Below, one piece after another: positions 19,476 through 56,050 of a stretch of DNA of 64,000 nt. Within the stretch, counting starts at the first letter, position 1, and every line of letters begins with the position of its first letter. Below the pieces are notes generated by a model. The model searched no databases. It was not told where the DNA came from and saw only the letters and a program-made list of their open reading frames with translations. Both the position numbers and the translations under genes were made by a program. Source of the DNA: Bacteroidales bacterium (GTDB lineage: Bacteria; Bacteroidota; Bacteroidia; Bacteroidales; P3); contig JAGBOF010000010.1 of NCBI GenBank assembly GCA_017633985.1, forward strand, positions 124,001-188,000. The letters run 5' to 3'.

Positions 19476-19593
19476 GAGTTAAAGTAAAACGGCCATTTTA
19501 TTGCGGACTCAATAACAGTAGGTAAATGTCCATGCTTCGTGTGGATTATACTTACGGGTTCGCTATGGTGCTTGGCCGTACCAACTTTAACTC
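19476..19593. ncRNA. Candidate 118-nt structured RNA element
   Basis: The ends GAGTTAAAGT (19476-19485) and ACTTTAACTC (19584-19593) are perfectly complementary. A second perfect pair, ACGGCC (19489-19494) with GGCCGT (19574-19579), continues the same stem, giving 16 bp around a small internal loop. Inside are a perfect hairpin TTATTG/CAATAA (19498-19503 and 19510-19515) and a two-part hairpin GTAGGTA/TACTTAC with inner TCCA/TGGA (19518-19555). The fold is a closed multibranch junction. It occupies the gap 19361-19675 before the acyltransferase gene. Strand is not certain because the fold is almost symmetric. I recognise no known riboswitch, SRP, tmRNA or 6S signature. Confidence 0.55.
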
Positions 19594-47087: not shown

Positions 47088-47170
47088 AAGACGGCGTTAA
47101 AATTTTTTAATACGGCGTTTCAGTAAAATAAAACGCCGTATTAATTTCTTAAAACGCCGTCTTTTTTCAG
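47088..47170. repeat. Intergenic 21-bp module array (type B, mirror-symmetric)
   Basis: Cores CGGCG at 47092 and 47113 and CGCCG at 47134 and 47155 are exactly 21 bp apart. The first two modules are the inverse of the last two, so the whole array is one palindrome. Confidence 0.9.
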
Positions 47171-47617
47171 CGGTATGTAATACGGAATTTTTGATACGTT
47201 GTTTAAACGGATTTTGTTAATAAAAGTGTGGAAAAAAAAGAAATTTTAAAAATTTTTAACTTCGTGTTGTTGAAAAAAATTTAAACAAAAATTCAGTAAA
47301 GTTTATTAAATAAAACTTATAATGGTTTTGTAAAAGCATGAATTAACGTTTATTGCTGACAAATTACGGTGAAAATGCAGAAAAACGAAAAAAACATTAA
47401 AAAATTTTTTTATTTCAAAAAAATAGTCTATAATTGGGCAGTTATGGTTTTATGTAATGAGTCGGTAAATTTAAATAGTAGAAAATCAGGGTAGATAGAA
47501 AAATTTTTATTTGCTTGAGGGCATATTCTGACATTGCATGCAATCCGTCCGCCTTATATACGGAATTTTTTCGAATTACAAGCAAAAAAATAAAAAAAAA
47601 GTAAAAAAATAAATTCA
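47171..47617. other. AT-rich region upstream of dnaA
   Basis: About 450 bp rich in A and T runs without an ORF. One DnaA-box-like site, TGTGGAAAA (47227-47235, one mismatch to TGTGGATAA), is visible. I did not find a cluster of DnaA boxes, so an origin here is only a possibility suggested by the position next to dnaA. Confidence 0.3.
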
Positions 47618-54506: not shown

Positions 54507-54628
54507 ACTTGTCTGTATTAATGTATATATACGTGATTGTTACTGTTTAAAGTCTTAAAAAATTGTTTTTCGGGAATATCCGTGCAATTCAAAGTATCAG
54601 AATTGCATCTTAACGGAAAAACTTTCCG

Positions 54629-54636
54629 CAAAATTA
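54629..54636 (-). promoter_or_regulatory. rho promoter -7 box
   Basis: The plus strand reads CAAAATTA, giving TAATTTTG about 123 bp before the rho start codon. The leader 54507-54622 has no ORF. Confidence 0.6.
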
Positions 54637-54737
54637 CAACTTTATTTCCAATTGCGGACAAAAAACTATAAAAAATTTATTTATTTTTACATAAAACCAC
54701 CGCCCTGCGTATTTTCATTGCCGCTTTATTGCATGTC

Positions 54738-54849
54738 TGCGCCGCCCCGTGGCGTTTTATTTTCAAAAAAAGGGTTTTTTCGGGTCAAAAAAACTGTTTT
54801 TTTGAGGTAAAAAAAGGGTTTTTTCTGAATTAATACGGCACGGGGCTGC
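54738..54849. repeat. Type A palindromic A/T-tract element, copy 4
   Basis: Left arm GCCGCCCCGTGGCGT and right arm ACGGCACGGGGCTGC pair imperfectly. The cores GGG (54772), CTG (54794) and GGG (54816) are 22 bp apart inside A-run/T-run palindromes. It lies in the 833-bp divergent region between rho and the PAP2 gene. To its right, up to about 54930, AT-rich modules at 21 bp continue. Confidence 0.9.
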
Positions 54850-55049
54850 AAAAACATGCTTTAGGGCGTGATATTATCGCATACGGGCGGATATTTTGCG
54901 CAATTTCATCACGGTAATATACTATATTATATATATATAGGTATACGTTTTAACTTCGCAAAACATATTCCTGTCAAAGCAAAAGGCTGCATAAAGGCGC
55001 AGGGTTGAAGTTTTACGGGATTTATCCGCAACTAATAAAAATCTTTTTG

Positions 55050-55057
55050 TAATTTTG
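55050..55057 (+). promoter_or_regulatory. Promoter -7 box upstream of the PAP2 leader
   Basis: TAATTTTG fits the consensus and lies 283 bp before the PAP2 gene, implying a leader of about 275 nt. A second, poorer box (AAATTTTG, 55103-55110) precedes the rod-shaped element more closely. Confidence 0.55.
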
Positions 55058-55117
55058 CACTCCGCTTTTGACGTAAAGCGGCTTTGAAATACAATAACGT
55101 AAAAATTTTGTATACTG

Positions 55118-55262
55118 TTGCAAAACTCATAAATACGACCGATAAAAAGAGTAAGTAACGTAACGGATTAAAAACTGCAATTAACACTATCAGGTGTTTG
55201 TTTGTATGTTTTAGTTACAGTGGGTTCTTGGTCGTTCCCTTGAGTTTATAAAACAATTGCAA
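55118..55262 (+). ncRNA. Rod-shaped structured leader or 6S-like RNA candidate
   Basis: Complementary pairs nest along one axis: TTGCAA (55118-55123) with TTGCAA (55257-55262), AAACTC (55123-55128) with GAGTTT (55242-55247), ACGACC (55135-55140) with GGTCGT (55230-55235), GTAAC (55155-55159 or 55160-55164) with GTTAC (55214-55218), and AACAC (55183-55187) with GTGTT (55194-55198). The result is a long interrupted hairpin of about 145 nt, a shape shared with 6S RNA. A copy of the left arm (AACTC, 5 bases, ACGACC) recurs at 55321-55336, just before the PAP2 start, so the right arm has two possible partners. Confidence 0.5.
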
Positions 55263-55320
55263 AGAATATACCTGATTTTTCATTTTGTATTTCAATATAA
55301 TTACATAACAATTTAATCAA

Positions 55321-55336
55321 AACTCTAAAAACGACC
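55321..55336 (+). promoter_or_regulatory. Second partner of the leader's right arm at the PAP2 start
   Basis: AACTCTAAAAACGACC here repeats 55124-55140 (AACTCATAAATACGACC) with one base less in the middle. It ends 3 bases before the PAP2 ATG. Pairing with GGTCGT...GAGTT (55230-55246) would cover the ribosome landing region. Confidence 0.5.
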
Positions 55337-55339
55337 AAA

Positions 55340-56050
55340 ATGAAGAGATTTGTTATTTGTGCAATGATGTTGCATTGTGTTATTATGCCTTCTGCAGGGC
55401 AGAAATGGGCGGATTATGTTGTTCCCACATCGCTTATTGCCGTCGGTTCGTACGGAATTGAAAGCAATTGGTTTCATTCTTTGAACAACAGGATAAAAGA
55501 CGGTATGATGACGATAAGAGGCAGCAATTACCTGCATATTGACAACTATATACAGTATGTTCCCACAACTACAGCGCTTTTTGCGGAATATACGGGGGCG
55601 GATGCAAAACATAATATGAAAGAACGTTTAGCCCTGATAACCACTTCGGCGTTTATTACCGCTTCGTCGGTAAATATTACAAAACGTGCTGTAGGCGAAA
55701 AGCGTCCCGATACACAGGCGAAGACATCTTTTCCGAGCGGTCACACCGCTACGGCTTTTATGGGGGCTGAACTTGTCCGTAAAGAGTACGGCGGGCTATG
55801 GGCAGTGGGTGCTTATTCAATTGCGGCGGCTGTCGGAGTATTGAGAATGTACAATCAGCGCCATTGGTTCAACGATGTTTTGGCTGGTGCGGGCATTGGA
55901 ATTATTTCCGTTGAGCTTGCATATCTGCTTTTGCCAATGGAATCCCGTTTATTTCATTTACAGGAATGTAAAAAGACGTCACTGCTTATTATTCCCGCAT
56001 ATAATTACAATGAAAAGGCATTTTCATTCAATCTTTCGCTGACATTTTAG
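55340..56050 (+). CDS. PAP2-family membrane-associated phosphatase
   Basis: The 236-aa protein has an N-terminal signal or anchor (about residues 1-18, ending SAGQ) and the three phosphatidic acid phosphatase type 2 motifs: KRAVGEKRP, PSGHTATAF (catalytic His) and RMYNQRHWFNDV (His nucleophile and Asp). Hydrophobic helices surround the motifs. Such enzymes dephosphorylate lipids, for example undecaprenyl pyrophosphate, phosphatidic acid or lipid A; the substrate is not resolved. The C-terminal ~30 residues (IIPAYNYNEKAFSFNLSLTF) look like a beta-strand extension. It is preceded by a long structured leader. Confidence 0.88.
   Translation: MKRFVICAMMLHCVIMPSAGQKWADYVVPTSLIAVGSYGIESNWFHSLNNRIKDGMMTIRGSNYLHIDNYIQYVPTTTALFAEYTGADAKHNMKERLALITTSAFITASSVNITKRAVGEKRPDTQAKTSFPSGHTATAFMGAELVRKEYGGLWAVGAYSIAAAVGVLRMYNQRHWFNDVLAGAGIGIISVELAYLLLPMESRLFHLQECKKTSLLIIPAYNYNEKAFSFNLSLTF

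Follow-up and report, generated by a model that had tools for sequence, protein, structure and literature searches.

The rod-shaped hairpin at positions 55118-55252 of the window, the 64,000-nucleotide stretch of Bacteroidales DNA analyzed here, is best explained as a divergent member of an unannotated, multicopy family of structured 5' leader RNAs (probability roughly 0.6). Each of these leaders follows a promoter and precedes a start codon, in many cases that of a gene for an exported or surface protein, and they most likely act in cis. In the leader of the PAP2-family phosphatase gene the rod is combined with a second copy of its left arm directly in front of the start codon, an arrangement that most other members of the family lack.

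Layout and predicted folds of the PAP2 leader

According to the original prediction, one segment of this leader is complementary to two alternative left arms. This was borne out with coordinates correct to within 1 to 2 nt, and the right arm (55228-55247) can pair with either 55123-55142 or 55320-55338 (Table 1). The first pairing closes the predicted rod, which consists of 7 bp, a 5 × 5 internal loop, and another 7 to 8 bp, and the segment 55118-55252 indeed folds at -32.1 kcal/mol (z score, -2.6 to -2.9), the weakest folding among the rods tested. The alternative pairing comprises 9 bp (55228-55236 with 55330-55338), a loop, and 6 bp. The near copy is followed by AAA and the PAP2 ATG at 55340 and hence ends 3 nt before the start codon, as had been stated, and the likeness of the two copies spans 31 nt including the start region. 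The duplex energies of the right arm with the left arm and the near copy are -19.6 and -18.5 kcal/mol, respectively. A joint complementarity of -18.5 (shuffle mean, -10.1; standard deviation, 1.3) was reached in none of 300 dinucleotide shuffles; compared with natural leaders the value is less extreme, as 2 of 114 leaders (about 460 kb) surpass it. The complete genome of 2,390,692 bases contains AAACTC-N3-7-ACGACC at three places, all of them in the PAP2 leader (inverted at 55230-55247), with spacers of 6, 6, and 5 nt in the left arm, right arm, and near copy. The exact arms were absent from 84,980 species scanned by pattern, and a plasmid search was likewise negative.

Table 1. Positions of leader elements and of a second rod in the window
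Feature	Position	Strand	Remarks
Left arm (first copy)	55123..55140	+	AAACTCATAAATACGACC, AAACTC-ATAAAT-ACGACC; 5' strands of P1 and P2 around an A-rich loop
Right arm	55230-55247; wider element 55228..55247	+	GGTCGTTCCCTTGAGTTT; wider element TTGGTCGTTCCCTTGAGTTT; 3' strands of P2 and P1 around a CCC loop
Second (near) copy	55320..55336; wider 55320..55338	+	AAACTCTAAAAACGACC; wider AAACTC-TAAAA-ACGACCAA; in the translation initiation region
PAP2-family phosphatase gene	55340..56050	+	236 aa, N-terminal signal-like segment; Pfam check
-7 promoter element	55050..55057	+	TAATTTTG; Bacteroidetes type TAnnTTTG; transcription start expected near 55064
Inner-arm strand	55189..55195	+	ATCAGGT; complement of 55270-55276
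Downstream strand, then U-run	55270..55280	+	ACCTGAT, then TTTTT; counterpart of AAAGTTCAC plus U-run in other family members
Complement of the start codon region	55279..55287	+	TTCATTTTG; complement of CAAAATGAA (55336-55344); weak alternative mask, alone not significant
Second family member in the window	19478..19591	+	Rod of -51.4 kcal/mol, z score -7.7; an acyltransferase-like ORF begins about 84 nt further on

Bacteroidia lack Shine-Dalgarno sequences, and initiation is favored by A at -3 and -6, an A-rich stretch around -12/-13, and low structure (PMC6847099). The PAP2 start has an A at all of the positions -3, -6, -12, and -13, and pairing of the right arm with the near copy would cover -3 and -6. 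Two mutually exclusive folds exist in the prediction, one of which would cover the PAP2 start, and the energies favor the rod. For the transcript 55120-55345 the two states are nearly equal (-42.0 and -42.3 kcal/mol), a balance found only in short modeled transcripts; in most of them the rod, with an open start, is favored by 5 to 11 kcal/mol, and by 9 to 11 kcal/mol in those beginning at the upstream promoter. Even in the rod state the start codon region could still pair weakly with 55279-55287. Since the rod is favored and would be formed before the second copy is transcribed, the default is expected to be a formed rod with an occupied right arm. Because of this predicted dominance, something must open the rod, and an OFF state needs a trigger.

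The translational switch that had been proposed is supported in part. The three-part layout is present, and the right arm can either close the rod or cover the start, but the rod is predicted to dominate, the near copy is usually absent in the rod family, and both copies are missing from the short leader of a PAP2 homologue (51% identity) in the same genus. The last point counts against a conserved PAP2-specific switch. Conservation of both copies in relatives had been suggested as a check and was not found: only chance DNA matches of the leader were obtained in 13 genus-mates and 60 relatives, and the leaders and gene contexts of PAP2 homologues in relatives differ. A cis translational switch is a plausible hypothesis for a local expression platform of the PAP2 leader, although the modeled folds favor the rod.

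A strict two-block search for the succession of copy, inverted copy, and copy, with G+C in both blocks and covering all intergenic DNA of the genome, returned two loci (0 of 40 whole-genome shuffles), namely, the PAP2 leader and a leader on another contig (G000:C6:81758-81946). The last copy of the latter abuts the ATG, and its letters (CTCTTTA...TTAGACAC) are unrelated to those of PAP2. It is one of the two leaders that outscore PAP2 in joint complementarity, and its rod folds at -49 kcal/mol (z score, -7). In both loci the differences between copies are concentrated in the internal loop rather than in the paired blocks. The C6 leader has DNA homologues in two other genera (G018, locus L299; G014, locus L300), in which the P1 3' strand continues into a terminator-like stem carrying a T-run. 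Start-adjacent triples in about 470 kb of relatives' DNA were only coding-like repeats, and an energy-only genome scan for such triples was dropped as too noisy.

A probable multicopy family of rod leaders

The PAP2 rod resembles other leaders of the genome in architecture and not in letters, with a covariation-like variety of P1 and P2. Model R2, which was trained on the window rod alone, gave C6:81755-81880 the top rank and C6:90264-90384 the next in the 20-kb locus containing them; over 26 kb it recovered both C6 rods as well as the L300 rod of another genus at full length; it also found a rod at L282 and missed most other members in a wider search. Model R3 was built from four rods (the two C6 rods, L300, and the window rod, which is hence included by construction) and detected about 12 further rods in the genome, which have a length of 118 to 173 nt, fold at -36 to -49 kcal/mol, and are mostly located 66 to 145 nt before ORFs. 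Its matches at L240 and L266 were discarded as short, AT-rich false positives. An R2 match at window positions 47095-47220 was likewise rejected; it belongs to a different interspersed palindromic repeat (ACGGCG/AACGCCGT) that mimics rods in model searches.

The shared anatomy comprises a P1 helix of variable sequence, an internal loop that is A-rich on the 5' side and contains CC on the 3' side, a P2 helix, and an inner arm. Beyond P1 there is a further strand (AAAGTTCAC or AATTCACAC) that is complementary to the inner arm and in many members precedes a U-run. This pairing is the sole structure called by RNAalifold on an unfitted alignment; its combined P value is 4e-6, with mostly 0.05 to 0.2 for single pseudoknots. 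In P1 and P2, 94.5% of the cells are paired while the letters change, compared with 36 to 41% in slid controls, a figure that leans the model's way because the alignment was fitted to it. The other members tested have z scores of -3.7 to -7.8, and in 14 of 17 members the promoter motif TAnnTTTG precedes the rod by 44 to 88 nt. Rfam 15 gave no match above the gathering threshold or with a credible E value for the window rod or any other member tested; one search yielded a subthreshold rli62 hit.

Copy number was assessed with a descriptor based on structure only (P1 and P2 of at least 6 bp each, an A-rich loop on the 5' side facing a CC-containing loop on the 3' side, and a span of 96 to 175). 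It detected 48 intergenic loci in the genome versus 8, 8, 10, 3, 7, and 3 in six shuffled genomes. Exchange of the 3'-loop dinucleotide yielded 19 (GG), 39 (TC), and 61 (CA) loci, which partly overlap real members, and the CC requirement is therefore not by itself the source of the enrichment. An ORF of at least 90 aa starts 20 to 230 nt downstream on the same strand at 31 of the 48 loci and on the opposite strand at 9, and TAnnTTTG is found upstream of 28. The downstream products include BspA-like and other signal peptide proteins, acyltransferases, and PAP2, as inspected from translations and with a Pfam check for PAP2 alone. We estimate that about 30 to 40 real members are present in the genome.

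The PAP2 rod is one of the 48 loci (C9:179123, corresponding to window position 55123). The family position was defined by TAnnTTTG upstream and a same-strand start codon 66 to 145 nt downstream, and the PAP2 leader has its -7 element at 55050 and its ATG 87 nt after the rod. It also has the downstream strand followed by TTTTT, and the wider pairing of ATCAGGT with ACCTGAT amounts to -21.5 kcal/mol (P value of 0.04 alone). Membership of the PAP2 rod in the family is accordingly quite probable. Its weak folding, the limited reach of R2, and its inclusion in R3 by construction count against membership, and it is placed as a divergent member with moderate confidence.

In 3 of 17 members the closing strand pairs exceptionally well with the start region of the same leader; in most others this pairing is unremarkable. 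The three are PAP2 (-18.7), C6:81755 (-20.0), and C7:13034 (-19.1), each ranking first of 33. Since a second copy is usually absent in the family, the near copy of PAP2 is a local add-on; as far as can be read from the sequences, such a copy appears to represent a platform of the individual locus, at some loci perhaps a chance match, and not the rule of the rod family.

Alternative explanations

The original prediction offered the alternative that the rod is an independent 6S-like RNA that targets the second copy, a reading that we regard as practically refuted. Likeness is confined to the rod shape. The Rfam model Bacteroidales-1 (RF01693) gives only weak matches in this bacterial family, and a family-specific 6S model (R1) was built from six of them. 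R1 has matches in 34 of the 37 genomes searched, including the present one, whose own 6S-like RNA (G000:C29:24189-24353, locus L131; 70.6 bits) escapes the Rfam model and is located elsewhere, between zapA and rny (named from translations). The window rod scores 9 bits with R1 and has no Rfam match, and for these reasons the alternative fails.

A stand-alone switch specific for PAP2 and unrelated to the other rods, with a left arm that imitates the start region and vies with it for the right arm, would account for the uniqueness of the three copies to this locus, for the nearly isoenergetic states of 55120-55345, and for the recurrence of the three-part layout in the C6 leader with a different sequence. 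However, homologues of the C6 leader exist in other genera, and it belongs by its features to a family mostly devoid of the second copy. The PAP2 leader agrees with this family in its promoter, in the pattern of its internal loop, and in having a downstream strand and a U-run, so that we consider a stand-alone switch unlikely. A modest chance is given to a purely mutational origin of the second copy by duplication or template switching, which would leave it without function while the rod may still be a family member. The extended likeness of the two copies and the rarity of second copies in the family agree with such an origin; the concentration of differences in the internal loop at both loci, sparing the paired blocks, does not.

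The U-runs after a conserved pairing in many members, together with the complementarity of the right arm to the PAP2 start, could also indicate an independent small RNA with its 3' end at the downstream pairing plus U-run, acting in trans or on the neighboring gene. This is improbable given the strand bias of the rods toward following start codons, the lack of a terminator-like site called at the PAP2 leader, and the uniqueness of the complete right-arm sequence in the genome when up to two mismatches are allowed. A role of the three copies as DNA binding sites of a regulator (orientation +, -, +) is very improbable. Two 6-bp blocks 11 to 12 bp apart do recur three times in 215 bp, but such sites are found nowhere else in the genome, their spacers are unequal, and the architecture persists in other members although the letters are unrelated, which a sequence-specific regulator would not read. 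We attach hardly any weight to an invertible promoter, for which the right arm and the second copy would serve as inverted repeats. They are 72 bp apart upstream of the PAP2 gene and enclose a weak promoter-like TTCTTTGC on the minus strand, reminiscent of Bacteroides invertons with their inverted repeats upstream of surface-type genes. The repeats are, however, imperfect with a mismatched center and a longest perfect run of 9 bp, the members of the rod family have unrelated repeats, and no inverted promoter is common to the two similar loci.

Some further candidates were rejected. Promoter-like elements for a minus-strand antisense RNA differ between the PAP2 and C6 loci, and a MITE was ruled out by the single copy. 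An integron attC site is presumably absent, as no AAC/GTT core was seen by eye next to the loop.

Proposed mechanism, known systems, and neighboring elements

In the preferred reading, a cis-acting leader of the rod family, P1 and P2 would form a sensing or protein-binding domain that is held or released by a signal, and the 3' strand of P1/P2 would be handed over to an expression platform. For PAP2, a formed rod would leave the start open (ON), and opening of the rod would allow 55228-55247 to pair with 55320-55338 and to cover the initiation region (OFF). In most members, the downstream strand and the U-run are the obvious candidate for termination. With the odds somewhat against the full claim, we tentatively suggest that the approximately 30 to 40 copies per genome in one Bacteroidales lineage represent a new class of cis-regulatory leader RNAs. 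One signal (metabolite, ion, or RNA-binding protein) would be sensed by the A-rich/CC loop and coordinate a regulon of exported and surface proteins, and the platforms would be interchangeable, being terminator-like in most members and start covering in a few such as PAP2. If true, this would be a new RNA-based regulon in Bacteroidales with dozens of copies, mostly exported or surface genes, no Rfam entry, and homologues in other genera. The family would make testable what the common loop recognizes and how a phylum without Shine-Dalgarno sequences closes a start site by RNA structure.

The rod family resembles riboswitches and orphan riboswitch candidates in its leader position, its multicopy occurrence, and a closing helix in which the 3' strand could also pair elsewhere (with the start region in PAP2, with the terminator-like stem in L299 and L300). 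It differs from them in the missing Rfam 15 match, in P1 and P2 sequences that vary freely, in a ligand that is putative, and in genes that mostly encode exported or surface proteins instead of one pathway. In erm-type translational attenuators, segment 2 pairs with segment 1 or 3, and the middle segment of the PAP2 leader could correspondingly pair with the upstream copy or the initiation region. In contrast to these attenuators, no leader peptide is visible before the PAP2 rod, a link to a ribosome-stalling antibiotic is lacking, and Bacteroidia have no Shine-Dalgarno sequence to cover.

Several additional features were observed among the leaders. Four of them (L165:10264, L269:11561, L189:13034, and L218:15879) represent a subtype with GGTGTGAATTTTCC/AATTCACAC pairing, mostly before BspA-like genes, and share a conserved GCAGC...CTGCAC stretch adjoining the start codon. 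In L201, L285, L199, L165, and L267, TTTTTATG just after the U-run opens an ORF of 3 to 6 codons (such as MSC, MSS, MFC, MPLN, and MPFP), a possible mini-ORF between the rod RNA and the gene. In L285, L220, L201, L254, and L165, a conserved GACATATTAA precedes the rod by about 50 nt and is succeeded by a GCGTTACGC-like hairpin, perhaps a further leader domain.

Two other elements are located close to the PAP2 leader. No rod was found in the rho-upstream region of genus-mates; in the window, a leader with GTTTTTCGGG...GGAAAAACTTT is present 5' of rho (about 54540-54660) and recurs in several of them. An interspersed intergenic element, in which GC-rich complementary arms enclose two or three A-run/T-run hairpins, is located at 54739-54860 and recurs about 80 times elsewhere in the genome (a regular expression counted 81 copies).
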